Positions 1 to 25,213 of a DNA stretch of 64,000 nucleotides are shown in pieces. The position numbers and the translations under genes were made by a program. The stretch lies in the NCBI GenBank assembly GCA_030158125.1, contig JAOATL010000024.1:186001-250000 (forward strand). Reading direction: 5' to 3'. The notes beneath the pieces were generated by a model that saw only the letters and a list, made by a program, of their open reading frames with translations, was not told where the DNA came from and ran no database searches. This DNA is from Limnohabitans sp. (lineage in GTDB: Bacteria; Pseudomonadota; Gammaproteobacteria; Burkholderiales; Burkholderiaceae_C). Every line of letters starts with the position of its first letter. The stretch's first letter is position 1.

Positions 1-761
<761 letters not shown>

Positions 762-18547: not shown

Positions 18548-20914
18548 CTAGTTTCGGAACAAGTCCAAAATTCGTTTGCGCTCGTCGGCTTCAGGCAGCG
18601 CACCGCCTTTGTCATTGCCAAGCCCCAGGCTGGTCACGCCGCCACCTTTGGCGTATTCATCAAAGTACCATTCACCGTTGACATTCAGCACGCCTTCAGG
18701 TGCCGTGGCATCCGCCACCGGCAAGGTTTTGAGGGCTGTGTCCATGAAGCTGATCCACACCGGCAAGCTTAAGCCTCCCCCTGTTTCTCGATCGCCCAAT
18801 TTACGAGGTGTGTCATAACCAATCCACACCACCGCGGCCAAATTGCGGTGATAGCCTGCAAACCAGGCGTCCATTGAGTCGTTGGTGGTGCCCGTTTTGC
18901 CATAGATGTCGTCACGCTTTAAGGCGACGCGGGCTTTGGCCGCCGTGCCGGAGCGGGTGACCTCTTGCAGCAAACTGGTCATGACAAAAGCGTTGCGCGG
19001 TGAAATGGCACGACTGCTTTCGTCCACTGGCACGGGCGGGCTGTCGACCAAGATTTTGCCCTTGTGATCGGTGATGCGCGAGATCATGTGCGGTTGAACG
19101 CGCAGGCCACCGTTGGCGAACACAGAGTAGCCAGTGGCCATTTGCATGGGCGTCACAGAGCCCGCGCCCAAAGCCATGGTGAGGTAGGCCGGATGTTTGT
19201 CTTCGTCAAAGCCAAATTTGGTGACCCACTCTTGCGCATTGCGTGTGCCAACAGCTTGCAAGATGCGAATGGAAATCATGTTTTTCGATTTGGCCAAACC
19301 TTTGCGAATGCTCATGGGGCCTTCGAAGGTGCCGTCGTAGTTTTTGGGCTCCCAAGGTTGCCCCCCTGTCACACCGGCGTCAAAGAACAACGGAGCGTCG
19401 TTCACCACCGTGGCCGGCGTAAAGCCTTTTTCCAAAGCGGCAGAGTAAATGAAGGGTTTGAAGCTAGAGCCGGGTTGGCGCCATGCTTGAATCACGTGGT
19501 TGAATTTGTTTTTCGCAAAATCAAATCCACCGACCAATGCGCGCACAGAACCATCTTGTGGGTTGATGGCCACAAAGGCGCCTTCGACTTCTGGCAGTTG
19601 TGTAATTTCCCATGTGCCTTTGGGTGTTTGCACCACGCGGATCACGGCGCCGCGCTTGATCTTGATGTTGGGCCCCGCTTTGTCTGACAAGCCCGATTGA
19701 GCTGGTTTCAAGCCTTCGCCTGTGATTTCAAGTTGCTCGGCATTTTGGCGAACAGCCACAATCTTTTTGGGTGTGGCTTCCAGTACCACCGCCGACATGA
19801 CATCGCCATTGTCGGGGTGGTCGTCCAGCACATCGTCAATGGCATCTTCCAACTCTTTGGCCGAGGTGGGCAGGTCGATGAACTTTTCAGGTCCACGGTA
19901 GACCTGGCGGCGTTCAAAGTCCATGATGCCTTGGCGCAGTGCTTTGTATGCTGCCGTTTGTTCAGTCGATTGCAATGTGGTGTAAACGTTCAAGCCGCGC
20001 GTGTAAGTTTCTTGGCCGTATTGGGCAAACATGAGTTGCCTGACGGTTTCGGCCACGTACTCGGCATGGATGCGATTTTTGTCATGCGTGGCGCGAATCT
20101 TCAACGGTTCTGCTTTGGCTTCTTGCGCTTGTTTGGCGGTGATAAAACCGTTCTCTTCCATGCGCTCAATGATGTAGAGCTGACGGGAACGTGCGCGCTT
20201 GGGGTTGCTGATGGGGTTGTAGGCAGAAGGGGCTTTGGGCAAACCGGCCAGCATGGCGGCTTCGGCAATGCTGATGTCTTTCAGAGATTTGCCAAAGTAA
20301 GTTTCGGCCGCTGACGCAAAGCCATAAGCCCGATTGCCCAAGAAGATTTGATTCATGTAGATCTCAAGAATCTGATCTTTGCTTAGCAAGTGCTCCAGCT
20401 TAAAGGTGAGCAATACTTCGTAAATCTTGCGGGTGTAGGTTTTCTCTGTGGACAGGTACACGTTGCGTGCCACTTGCATGGTGATGGTGGAAGCGCCTTG
20501 ACTTTTGCGTTTGCCCAAGTTGGCAATGCCCGCGCGAATCAAACCCAAATAGTCCAAACCACCGTGTTGGTAAAAACGTGCATCTTCAATGGACAGCACG
20601 GCGTCTTTCATGACTTGAGGAATTTCTTGAATGGGCGTGAGATTGCGTCGTTCTTCACCAAATTCACCCATGAGTGCGCCATCGGCGGTGTAAATGCGCA
20701 AGGGCAATTTGGGGCGATATTCGGCCAAGTCAGAGGTGTCGGGCAGTTGCGGATAGGCCATCACCATGGCCACCCCGATCACCATCAACAAGGACAAGAA
20801 GCCTGCAGCCACCAATCCTGCGGCCCATAGGCAAACGCGCAAGGCCCAATGCAGGCGCGGTGACTCGATCAGATCGAGTTGTTGGGAGGCAGAGGCGTTG
20901 CTTTTTTTGGACAT
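18548..20914 (-). CDS. mrcA: Penicillin-binding protein 1A
   Basis: GASTITMQVARNVYLS transglycosylase and RQPGSSFKPFIY / GKTGTTNDSMDAWFAGY transpeptidase motifs; start at MSKKSNASAS. Confidence 0.96.
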   Translation of the reverse strand: MSKKSNASASQQLDLIESPRLHWALRVCLWAAGLVAAGFLSLLMVIGVAMVMAYPQLPDTSDLAEYRPKLPLRIYTADGALMGEFGEERRNLTPIQEIPQVMKDAVLSIEDARFYQHGGLDYLGLIRAGIANLGKRKSQGASTITMQVARNVYLSTEKTYTRKIYEVLLTFKLEHLLSKDQILEIYMNQIFLGNRAYGFASAAETYFGKSLKDISIAEAAMLAGLPKAPSAYNPISNPKRARSRQLYIIERMEENGFITAKQAQEAKAEPLKIRATHDKNRIHAEYVAETVRQLMFAQYGQETYTRGLNVYTTLQSTEQTAAYKALRQGIMDFERRQVYRGPEKFIDLPTSAKELEDAIDDVLDDHPDNGDVMSAVVLEATPKKIVAVRQNAEQLEITGEGLKPAQSGLSDKAGPNIKIKRGAVIRVVQTPKGTWEITQLPEVEGAFVAINPQDGSVRALVGGFDFAKNKFNHVIQAWRQPGSSFKPFIYSAALEKGFTPATVVNDAPLFFDAGVTGGQPWEPKNYDGTFEGPMSIRKGLAKSKNMISIRILQAVGTRNAQEWVTKFGFDEDKHPAYLTMALGAGSVTPMQMATGYSVFANGGLRVQPHMISRITDHKGKILVDSPPVPVDESSRAISPRNAFVMTSLLQEVTRSGTAAKARVALKRDDIYGKTGTTNDSMDAWFAGYHRNLAAVVWIGYDTPRKLGDRETGGGLSLPVWISFMDTALKTLPVADATAPEGVLNVNGEWYFDEYAKGGGVTSLGLGNDKGGALPEADERKRILDLFRN

Positions 20915-21081: not shown

Positions 21082-21753
21082 ATGACGTCCTTCTTTTCAC
21101 GGCCTACCGTTCCGCGGTGGGGTATTTATTCGCACTCGCAACTTCCAAACTTGTTCAGTGTGGTGGCGGTCAAAGACCACCAAATGCGCTGCCAAACTGG
21201 CATGGGTTTGGCGTTGCAGGTTTCTGCCGTGATTCAAAACTGCCAAGCTGCATGGCCTCTATGGGCGCGCCGGCAGCGGGCCAAACCTCAAACCATGCCA
21301 GCCGCTTGGGTCATGCCCGATACAGAACTCTCAAGTTTTGACCTGGCGTGCTCACCCGCTTGGGGGCCACAAGACACAGAAGCTGAGTGCCAATTGGAAG
21401 CCAGTGCGCGCATGCAATTGTCTGCAGAGCAAGTGGCATTCAATTACGCGGTTCATCGATTGCCCGGTGGCGCGATGCAGGCTCGGGTTTGGGCCTGTCA
21501 CTTAACAGTGCTCACCTCGCAGGCCGCGCAACTGCAAGACTTGGGTTTGCAACTGCAAGTCACAACATCGCGCAAGGAAGCGTCTGGCATGAACGTGTTT
21601 TTGGGCGTCACACGCCAGAGCCTGCAAGACTTGCACAAACGCATTGAAGGGCAGGTGGCGCAATGTTTCGTCCAAGGTTCGGCTCAAAATTCGGTCCAAG
21701 ATTTGTCACAAGATTTGCCACAAGGCTCGCAACAAGAGGCAATCCCATGTTGA
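21082..21753 (+). CDS. PilM/HofM-like protein, about 223 aa (apparently only the N-terminal part of PilM)
   Basis: Divergent from mrcA, first gene of a pil-like block; AWVMPDTELSSFDLACSPAWGPQDTEAECQLEASARMQLSAEQVAFNYAVHRL resembles the PilM segment on membrane-helix/ATPase subdomain spacing. Confidence 0.6.
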   Translation: MTSFFSRPTVPRWGIYSHSQLPNLFSVVAVKDHQMRCQTGMGLALQVSAVIQNCQAAWPLWARRQRAKPQTMPAAWVMPDTELSSFDLACSPAWGPQDTEAECQLEASARMQLSAEQVAFNYAVHRLPGGAMQARVWACHLTVLTSQAAQLQDLGLQLQVTTSRKEASGMNVFLGVTRQSLQDLHKRIEGQVAQCFVQGSAQNSVQDLSQDLPQGSQQEAIPC

Positions 21754-22334
21754 ATTTGATGCCGCCACCGGCCACGGGTCATCCCATCATGCGCCGTGAC
21801 ATCCAATGGCCCATGGCCCTTGGCTTGCTGCTGGGTTTGCTGTACCCAATGGCGCAAGAAATGGAGGCCAGCAAGGCCCTTTCAAGTGATCGCTCAATCA
21901 CTGCATCCAATTCACAGTTGGCCTTGGCTTCCTCTGTGGCCGTGTCGCCAGCCGCGCAAGCTGAGGCGCAAGAAGCCTTGAGTTTGAGGCGGGCCAGTCT
22001 GACATTTTTAGAACGTCGTCAGGCACAAAGAGACGACGTCACGGAAGTGCAAGAAATTTGGCTGTTGAGTCGTTTGGGCAGTTCGCAAGCCGCGGTCAAA
22101 TTGCAAGCGCAGCAATGGCAGATGGGGCAATTCAGCTGGGAAGGGGTTGCCGCGCACTCGGGCCATCTTGATACGTTGTTGCACCGTCTCAACCGATTTT
22201 CGCGTTGGGCGGAGGCGCCAGTTTTGGTGCGCCTGCAGCCAGAAACAACTGTGCAAAATTTGGGCAGCAGCGTCACGGGTTTGACCTTTCAGTTGCAAGC
22301 ATCGGTTCATTCACAACCAGGCCGGGGCTCATGA
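21747..22334 (+). CDS. PilN/HofN-like protein (195 aa)
   Basis: ATGTTGA overlap with the upstream gene; MLNLMPP start, single N-terminal TM, following coiled region; position in locus. Confidence 0.55.
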   Translation: MLNLMPPPATGHPIMRRDIQWPMALGLLLGLLYPMAQEMEASKALSSDRSITASNSQLALASSVAVSPAAQAEAQEALSLRRASLTFLERRQAQRDDVTEVQEIWLLSRLGSSQAAVKLQAQQWQMGQFSWEGVAAHSGHLDTLLHRLNRFSRWAEAPVLVRLQPETTVQNLGSSVTGLTFQLQASVHSQPGRGS

Positions 22335-23329
22335 TGACAAGCACTGCATGGACTTGGACCCAAGCCCAGCTGGCGCGTGCTTGCCATGCGCACATGCCTG
22401 TGCTGTGGGTGCATTGGCAAAACCACACCTTGTTTGCTTCGCCGTTTGCGCGTGCAGGGAGAGCCTTGGCTTTGTCCGTGGCGACAAGTGGGGCGTTGGT
22501 GTTGTTGTGGCAAAGCTTGGCGGGTTGGGCCGCTTTGCCCTCTAGCCGGTGGGCTCAGCGCCAGCTTCAGGTCCGGGTCCAGACACGCCAAGAGGTTGAA
22601 CAACAGGCCCAAGCGGTGGGCGCGCTGGCCGCCATGCAAAGGCTGCGGCAAGTCGCGCTAGACCAGCAGGCTCAAATAGATGAGCAGGTTTTGGCATGGC
22701 CTAATTCCGCGCTGCGTTTGTCCTTGCTCAACCAAATGCAGCAAATGGCGCAGCAAAGGGGCTTGCACGTGCGCCATTTAAGGTCACTGCACGAGCCTGC
22801 GCAGCATGGCTACGAGGGCAGTGCCGTTCATTTCAGTGTGCTTGGCACAGAATGGGCCGTCCACGCCTACTGGCAGGCGCTTCAGCAACTGCTCCAAAAC
22901 GGCGCCTGGACTTCCTGGGCCATTCGCTTACAACCCGACGGACAGTACAGTTTTGAAGGTCATTTGGCGCTGCTGTGGGATGCGCAAGATGCCATCACCG
23001 ACACGGGCGTTGCTTTGCAGTGGCACGCCAGTGTCGCGGCTTCAGCAGCCGCGCAGCCTGTGGCTGTGCCGGTCCATGCGCATGTGCTGTCCGATCAAAG
23101 CCAAGCGCAAATGCGGGTGGTGGGGGCGGCGCAATCGACCCTGCCCGGCAATCCCGAAACCGCTTGGACCTGGATTCGGTCAGGCACAAGCGTGCATTTG
23201 GTTCGCCCAGGACAGCTCTTGGGCAAGGAGCACAGCAAGGTGGGATTCACAGATGCCCTTGGACTTCGGCTCAGTGCTGGCGCGGGCCAAGCAGATTCGC
23301 AGTTGGGCTGGGAGGTGGTGAAGCCATGA
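22331..23329 (+). CDS. PilO-like and PilP-like regions in one ORF (332 aa)
   Basis: N-terminal TM and coiled coil (PilO-like); C-terminal QMRVVGAAQ...TAWTWIRSGTSVHLVRPGQLLGKEHSKVGFTDALGLRL resembles a PilP beta domain; ATGA junctions on both sides. Confidence 0.55.
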   Translation: MMTSTAWTWTQAQLARACHAHMPVLWVHWQNHTLFASPFARAGRALALSVATSGALVLLWQSLAGWAALPSSRWAQRQLQVRVQTRQEVEQQAQAVGALAAMQRLRQVALDQQAQIDEQVLAWPNSALRLSLLNQMQQMAQQRGLHVRHLRSLHEPAQHGYEGSAVHFSVLGTEWAVHAYWQALQQLLQNGAWTSWAIRLQPDGQYSFEGHLALLWDAQDAITDTGVALQWHASVAASAAAQPVAVPVHAHVLSDQSQAQMRVVGAAQSTLPGNPETAWTWIRSGTSVHLVRPGQLLGKEHSKVGFTDALGLRLSAGAGQADSQLGWEVVKP

Positions 23330-24666
23330 GACACGCCTCTTTTTGGACCGTTTGTGCATGGATGCTGGTGGCCAACGGGCCAGTGCAAGCCGCCGATGAG
23401 AAGCTGAAATGGACCTTTCAGAACATAGAAGTCAAAGCCTTGCTGCAATCTTTGGCCGAAATCGGTCAGCACAATTTGATTGTGGCCGATGGGGTCACAG
23501 GACCGATCAGCCTGCATTTGAAAGACATGACGTGGCGCGAAGCATTGAACGTGGTGGTGCAGTCGAAAGGTCTGGTGGTCACAGACCAACAGGGTGTGTT
23601 GTGGATCAGTGCGCGCAGCGATGCCTCTGAGGGTTTGCAAGCATTGGCCATCTCCTTGAAGTACGCCAAGGCCGCTGACATTGCGCAGCGCTTGCAGTCA
23701 GCCAGTGCCGGTGTGGTGGGGCAGCGCTGGCTCAGTGCCCGGGGCACCGTCATGGCCGAGCCTAGAACCAACCAGTTGTTTTTTTTGGACACACCGACAG
23801 CGCTGAAACAAATCAAAGATGTCATTCAATGGCTCGATATTCCGGTTCGTCAAGTGATGATCGAGGCGCAAATCGTGGAAGCTGAAGAGCAGTTTGGTAA
23901 ATCTTTGGGCGTGCGATTGGGCGGTGCATTTGCCAGCAATTTTGCAGCGCCTTTTGCAGCCACGGCCAAACCCGTCCAAATGGCTTTGGGCGGTCAGGGC
24001 TTGGCGGGAGGTGGCGGCATCCAACCCAGTTATTGGCTCAATTTACCCGCTGGCCCGGCCGGTCAGGCACTTTACCCGCCCGCCAGTTTTGCCGTGTCAC
24101 TGTTCAATGCGGCCGCCAATCAGTTCTTGAATTTGGAAATTTCAGCCTTGGAGGCGGATGGTAAGGGCAAGGTCATTGCCAGCCCGCGGGTGGTTACCGC
24201 CGACCAAACCAAGGCCTTGATCGAACAAGGCACCGAGCTGCCTTATCAAGTCAGCAATGGCAACGGCGCGGCGTCCATCGCCTTTCGCAAAGCCAACTTG
24301 AAACTGGAAGTCACCCCTCAAATTACCCCAGAAGGGGCGGTGGTCTTGGAGTTGGACATCGCCAAAGACAGTGTCGGGCAAGTCACTAGCGCGGGCTATG
24401 CCATCAATACCAAGCATGTCAAAACCCAGGTCTTGGTGGACAACGGTGGAACAGTGGTCATTGGCGGTATTTTGGAGTCGGCAGACAAACAAGATGAAGC
24501 CCGTGTGCCCGGCTTGGCCAGCTTGCCAGGCATTGGCCACCTGTTTCAAAGTGAGCAGTTGACGCAGCGTAAAACAGAACTTCTCATCTTCGTCACCCCC
24601 AGGGTTTTGGCCGAAACCGTGCCCCGTGCCGCCTCGAATACACTTAGGGCCTCTAACGTACCTTGA
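23326..24666 (+). CDS. Short secretin of the PilQ/HofQ type (446 aa)
   Basis: WTFQNIEVKALLQSLAEIGQHNLIVADGVTGPISLHLKDMTWREAL (N0/STN), VMIEAQIVEAEEQFGKSLGVRLG, ELLIFVTPRVL secretin C-terminus. Confidence 0.9.
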   Translation: MRHASFWTVCAWMLVANGPVQAADEKLKWTFQNIEVKALLQSLAEIGQHNLIVADGVTGPISLHLKDMTWREALNVVVQSKGLVVTDQQGVLWISARSDASEGLQALAISLKYAKAADIAQRLQSASAGVVGQRWLSARGTVMAEPRTNQLFFLDTPTALKQIKDVIQWLDIPVRQVMIEAQIVEAEEQFGKSLGVRLGGAFASNFAAPFAATAKPVQMALGGQGLAGGGGIQPSYWLNLPAGPAGQALYPPASFAVSLFNAAANQFLNLEISALEADGKGKVIASPRVVTADQTKALIEQGTELPYQVSNGNGAASIAFRKANLKLEVTPQITPEGAVVLELDIAKDSVGQVTSAGYAINTKHVKTQVLVDNGGTVVIGGILESADKQDEARVPGLASLPGIGHLFQSEQLTQRKTELLIFVTPRVLAETVPRAASNTLRASNVP

Positions 24667-24676
24667 ATTTCTTCTT

Positions 24677-25213
24677 TTGCTCATTATTTTTGTTGGCCTC
24701 CCGGGATCTGGCAAAACGACCATCGGCAGACAGATGGGGCGTCGCTTGGGCCTGCCTTTTTTAGACTCAGACATCGTCATCGAGCAGCGTTTGGGCTGCT
24801 CCATTCGCGAGTTTTTTGATCGAGAGGGCGAAGAGCGCTTTCGCGACATTGAGCAAAGTGTCATAGACGATTTAAGCAAACACCACCACGGCGTGTTGTC
24901 CACCGGTGGTGGTTCGGTGTTGCGTGAGGCCAATCGCCAGCATTTGCGAGCACGTGGCAAAGTTGTTTATTTGCGTTCTTCACCCGAAGAAGTGTTTCGC
25001 CGGCTGAAACACGATTTGCAAAGACCGCTGTTGCAAGTCAATGACCCGCTTGAAAAATTGCGCACCTTGTACCAAGCGCGTGATCCCTTGTACCGCGAAA
25101 CGGCCCACTATGTCTTTGACACAGGCCGTCCCAGCATCAACAAATTGCTCAACAGCATCATTGGCGAGTTAGACCTTCAGGGTTTTGACACCCACACCTC
25201 ACATCATCCTTGA
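24677..25213 (+). CDS. aroK: Shikimate kinase (probable TTG start; ORF open from 24626)
   Basis: [39 protein letters not shown]; followed by aroB. Confidence 0.93.

Follow-up and report, generated by a model that had tools for sequence, protein, structure and literature searches.

In Limnohabitans, a common freshwater genus, the canonical pil/hof site holds only four short open reading frames, and this raises the question of which machine such a set encodes and whether that machine still works. We examined the locus in a window of 64,000 nucleotides (G000:C24:186001-250000) from a Limnohabitans genome (Burkholderiales; 3.06 Mb in 24 contigs). Our answer, held with a probability of about 0.75, is that this operon encodes the assembly platform and secretin of a streamlined but functional type IVa pilus, whose role is most likely DNA uptake (competence); the same figure jointly covers the vertical inheritance of the locus at the usual site and its reduction in the Limnohabitans ancestor. 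An earlier note on this DNA had described four overlapping frames lying divergent from mrcA and in front of aroK-aroB, and their lengths, coordinates and overlaps could be re-derived (Table 1).

Table 1. Features of the pil locus in the window (nucleotide positions) and parts of the PilO-PilP protein (residues).
Feature	Position	Strand	Length	Remarks
mrcA	18548..20914	-		divergent flank; marks the canonical pil/hof site; likely ATG at 20914
pilM ORF	21082..21753	+	223 aa	re-derived from the sequence
pilN ORF	21747..22334	+	195 aa	re-derived from the sequence
pilO-pilP ORF	22331..23329	+	332 aa	re-derived from the sequence
pilQ ORF	23326..24666	+	446 aa	re-derived from the sequence
aroK	24662..25213	+		downstream flank; inferred TTG start overlapping the pilQ stop
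PilO part of PilO-PilP	residues ~38-217			transmembrane helix, coiled coil and core
Linker of PilO-PilP				flexible
PilP part of PilO-PilP	residues ~250-332			HR beta-barrel

Successive frames (M/N, N/OP and OP/Q) share stop/start overlaps of 7, 4 and 4 bases, with mrcA divergent upstream and aroK-aroB following. The closest relatives at this locus were other Limnohabitans and Comamonadaceae bins. The identical four-frame set and order was present in 49 further Limnohabitans loci examined; among those reaching far enough, mrcA lay divergently upstream in 47 of 47 and aroK downstream in 49 of 49, and the short overlaps were kept in nearly all of the 49. Because order, synteny and overlaps recur in this way, a chance arrangement of four frames is unlikely, and the canonical position of the locus is confirmed across Limnohabitans. 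These 50 orthologous sets, including the window, were compared with nine full pil loci of related genera. Median sizes of M/N/OP/Q were 234/198/331/458 aa in the clade of the window and 254/205/348/482 aa in the other Limnohabitans loci, versus 363/208/225/182/711 aa for PilM/N/O/P/Q in the full loci of sister genera; the start of M is uncertain in some cases, with lengths of up to 366 aa. The most plausible start of aroK, a TTG, overlaps the pilQ stop as well (24662-24666), so that translation of aroK may be linked to that of the pil genes.

The first three frames of the window gave no match above curated cut-offs, and their identities come from the comparison of orthologue profiles with profiles (hhalign). 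ORF1 aligned to positions 26-203 of the 370 positions of full PilM (E 1.1e-9) and corresponds to its first half. The AlphaFold model of this half-PilM had a mean pLDDT of 90 and a pTM of 0.81, and its best solved matches in Foldseek were the EpsL cytoplasmic domain and Pseudomonas aeruginosa PilM (E 3e-8). In the window the protein has been cut down to the N-terminal lobe of the actin-like fold; the second lobe, which completes the nucleotide site, is gone, and in the other Limnohabitans clade just a short C-terminal piece of it is left. One orthologue (L070) passed the Pfam PilM_2 cut-off over positions 47-176 of 340. By profile and fold, the PilM homologue of a type IVa machine is present as this first half, and no full-length or second PilM was found elsewhere in the genome.

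ORF2 is a full-length PilN (E 5.4e-15 over 185 columns). Its N-terminal motif of the PilM-binding type reads LNLM in place of INLLP, and nearly all species of the orthologue set carry LNLM, LNLL or FNLL, which agrees with a retained PilM-PilN contact. Two different stretches of ORF3 matched PilO (E 2.2e-6) and PilP (E 1.7e-7), respectively. The AlphaFold model of ORF3 (pLDDT 84) shows a membrane helix, a coiled coil and the PilO core, followed by a linker of low confidence and a beta-barrel, and Foldseek returned PilO 2rjz as well as PilP 2y4y and 2lc4, the PilP structures with E ~0.02 and probability 1.0. Among the wrong profile pairings in hhalign, M showed no signal with either N or O and neither did O/P with N, N with O gave a weak one (E 0.002), and in a control locus (L084, Variovorax PCZ-1) the full proteins matched PilM_2, PilN, PilO, PilP and AMIN strongly. 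Homologues of PilN, PilO and PilP are present by profiles, and PilO and PilP also by folds, with scores below the Pfam cut-offs. The profile and structure comparison that the earlier note had proposed therefore assigns M, N, O and P, with predicted folds that match PilM/GspL for M and PilO plus PilP for O/P. The count of only four frames stands, but no pil gene is missing, since the periplasmic PilP domain is fused to PilO.

ORF4 encodes a PilQ-type secretin (TIGR02515, 390 bits versus a cut-off of 284). Pfam Secretin and Secretin_N were detected and the N0/STN and secretin core are kept; both AMIN domains are absent, and the alignment begins at position 275 of full PilQ. AMIN domains bind peptidoglycan and vary in number among pilus secretins, and their loss has been described as unexplained and worth investigating (PMC7545093). 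The genome contains one PilQ and one GspD, and no second PilQ was found; a second full pilMNOPQ elsewhere, which would have spoken against the earlier proposal, is not present, since neither PilQ nor PilM is encoded twice. In the PilQ tree, in which HofQ sits on a branch too long to serve as a root, one supported branch separates the Limnohabitans sequences, all lying to the same side of it, and they formed one group in a smaller tree.

The remaining parts of the machine were found away from this site. Adjacent pilB, pilC and pilD genes lie at about C24:255-258 kb. PilB of this genome has 404 aa and matches TIGR02538 over positions 173-563 of 564 only, falling below the cut-off because N1 is missing: the N-terminal MshEN (N1) domain, carried by control PilBs, is absent. 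Where other Limnohabitans gave a near-full-length match (33 genomes), the PilB frame measured 404-473 aa; for the best matches in other Burkholderiales families it measured 499-676 aa. The reduction is genus-wide and reaches PilB. N1 is thought to contact PilM, which is generally regarded as the socket of the stator into which N1 fits (PMC11656802). A literature search of titles and abstracts returned nothing on point for a fused PilO-PilP or an N1-less PilB.

A PilT-family ATPase (pilT_fam, 393 bits versus a cut-off of 319) is encoded beside yggS (L008 7410-8690; C15:79.4-80.7 kb), with no recognisable PilU there. PilT of at least 55% identity was present in 9 of the 24 Limnohabitans genomes searched and a more distant PilT in one. 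It was not found in the remaining 14 genomes, of which several are 99-100% complete; their best matches were weak, at the level and places of PilB/GspE. The genome of the window further contains a PilA-like major pilin and a minor pilin cluster (Pfam Pilin, N_methyl), as well as ComEA and ComEC of the natural competence machine, so that every gene the earlier note had listed for a search (pilB, pilT, pilC, pilD, pilA, comEA and comEC) is present. A search for PilY1 gave no match in the control genomes. The genome also encodes a T2SS, with a GspD and a GspE of its own, away from the pil locus, which is part of no gsp operon. One minor pilin (L018 10944-11384, minus strand) matched ComP_DUS, the family of the DNA-uptake-sequence receptor of Neisseria (E 1e-18); matches to ComP_DUS also occur among minor pilins of the ordinary PilE-like kind. 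With PilQ above its cut-off, profiles for M, N, O and P and the predicted folds, the idea of a reduced type IV pilus or DNA-uptake locus at the beta pil site is well founded; the uptake role we infer.

Such a set could also be the slowly decaying relic of a pilus system in a genus that is being streamlined, retained in part because it lies upstream of aroK-aroB in the operon. No internal stop was found in any of the 50 loci, and pairwise dN/dS indicated purifying selection on all four genes, with nearly all gene pairs at about 0.5 or below (0.14-0.46 for M, mostly 0.23-0.50 for N, mostly 0.21-0.37 for O/P and 0.07-0.17 for Q) and one pair of very low dS reaching 0.9 for N and 0.5 for O/P. The view that open frames speak against simple decay was upheld by both results, and selection was purifying in place of the relaxed selection that would have weakened the proposal, though looser on M, N and O/P than on Q. 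The pilin, PilB, PilC and PilD genes elsewhere are intact too, the domains have clean boundaries and folds predicted with confidence, and we regard decay as improbable. What it would explain are the domain losses in several parts, the loss of PilT in many species and the dN/dS of M, N and O/P, which is two to five times that of Q. The window shares only 31-46% identity in M and N with its nearest relatives, and the fast evolution of M, N and O/P could reflect weakening constraint. Full PilM is far more constrained, with a dN/dS of 0.02 (in the one full-locus pair unsaturated in some gene); the constraint on half-PilM is thus roughly tenfold lower, which is consistent with a simpler role.

The direct relatives of the Limnohabitans locus are the pilMNOPQ loci of Hydrogenophaga, Variovorax and other Burkholderiales, with the same site, order, overlaps and homologous proteins. 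Loci of the Hydrogenophaga/Variovorax type differ in that PilM is full-length (359-370 aa), PilO and PilP are two proteins and PilQ has 707-720 aa with AMIN, and PilB of other Burkholderiales carries MshEN, unlike that of Limnohabitans. The earlier note had compared the locus to the gammaproteobacterial Hof set. HofMNOPQ/HofB of Escherichia coli likewise comprises a small PilM-like protein, an AMIN-less secretin and a shortened motor at the same mrcA-aroK site (HofM 259, HofN 179, HofO 146, HofP 134, HofQ 412 and HofB 461 aa), and Haemophilus ComABCDE/PilB shows the same three traits. Both systems have five genes with O and P separate, while Limnohabitans has four with O and P fused. The small size is indeed shared; common descent is not supported, as Limnohabitans PilQ is 49-53% identical to comamonad PilQ versus 31% to HofQ, and PilB 53% identical to another Burkholderiales PilB versus 43% to HofB. 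Horizontal acquisition of a Hof/Com-type system into the same site would fit the similar protein sizes and the resemblance of the mini-N profile to HofN, but it conflicts with these identities and with the separate O and P genes of Hof, and descent through synteny already explains the site; we consider it very improbable. Direct hhalign comparison of O/P with HofO and HofP gave no signal. Judged on the identities of PilQ and PilB, the likeness to the Hof/Com sets is probably convergence.

The cytoplasmic domain of GspL in the T2SS shares the fold of half-PilM, and the T2SS also fuses parts, PulL corresponding to PilM plus PilN (PMC10191384); in Limnohabitans, however, PilM and PilN stay separate and the T2SS genes lie elsewhere with their own GspD and GspE. 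In the streamlined pilus that we favour, half-PilM, held by the PilN tail, would serve as a scaffold that needs no nucleotide, comparable to the GspL cytoplasmic domain. PilB, cut to its two motor domains, would dock mainly via PilC and would no longer be under c-di-GMP or PilM control through N1. PilN and PilO-PilP could form a periplasmic cage that fixes PilO and PilP at 1:1 and touches N0 of PilQ; PilP bridges PilQ and the inner complex (PMC10191384). PilQ would be the passage for the pilus, with ComEA/ComEC carrying DNA onward. The load-bearing chain (PilB-PilC-pilin; PilN-PilO-PilP-PilQ) would thereby be retained and regulatory or anchoring domains shed.

We favour DNA uptake as the most likely role on three grounds: the genome has ComEA and ComEC, competence systems are the nearest analogues in size, and DNA uptake in nontypeable Haemophilus runs through a type IVa pilus that lacks PilT (PMC6668835). 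ComEC and ComEA are widespread, and their presence does not prove uptake. A functional type IVa pilus that serves adhesion or surface contact instead is a live, though clearly less probable, alternative. It would agree with the PilA-like major pilin and the minor pilins, and in Limnohabitans on Daphnia pilQ is among the listed host-interaction genes (PMC6971282); the lack of PilT in many species makes classical twitching unlikely there, and both the Com proteins and the size analogy argue for uptake. Data on pilus, twitching or transformation in Limnohabitans were not found in the literature search.

To see how far the reduction extends, the O/P alignment was searched in 301 genomes of the family; near-full-length matches occurred in Limnohabitans only, and reduced loci of other genera were found among the partial matches. 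Genome G080 (L209 1899-6500) has a PilO-PilP fusion of independent origin, a full-length PilM, an AMIN-less PilQ and a PilB without the N-terminal domain. Two genomes of genus g50 (L208 and L210; genomes G338 and G273) have separate PilO and PilP, an AMIN-less PilQ and a PilM of 309-326 aa in which mainly the first half is recognisable and the second half is degenerate. Genome G254 has a possible three-gene locus (L207 3158-6983, minus-strand numbering) with a PilO-PilP fusion (304 aa), an AMIN-less PilQ and a 395 aa protein in which a PilM remnant appears to be joined to PilN. In these genera PilQ is called AMIN-less because its match to full PilQ begins beyond the AMIN region, at about position 262-272, rather than from the outcome of a Pfam scan. 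PilB N1 is absent in all three of these genera; the PilB frames are long in five other genera, in which PilO and PilP are separate. AMIN and N1 are thus lost together in 4/4 reduced genera, and the other Burkholderiales controls keep both. In the PilB tree, G080 lies among full-length PilBs with a support of 99/100, and at least two independent N1 losses are needed; long branches leave the place of g136 unsure. The reduction recurs in the family, at least once independently.

We tentatively suggest, at somewhat less than even odds, that type IVa machines repeatedly evolve to a minimal form that gives up both sides of the cytoplasmic control interface together, PilB N1/MshEN and the PilM nucleotide-binding lobe, while the PilQ AMIN is lost and PilO and PilP fused, the extreme being the three-gene locus of G254, which resembles the GspL layout. 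If so, pilus assembly would not require the nucleotide-dependent PilM-PilB interface. The Limnohabitans machine is without both halves of the PilM-PilB N1 contact, yet its genes are under selection. The genus offers a natural test of whether PilM nucleotide binding, control of PilB through N1 and c-di-GMP, and anchoring to peptidoglycan by AMIN are needed for assembly or only for regulation, and the coupling to N1 loss provides a concrete lead on AMIN loss (PMC7545093). That the PilO-PilP fusion might be unique to Limnohabitans was rejected, as it is also found in G080 and G254.
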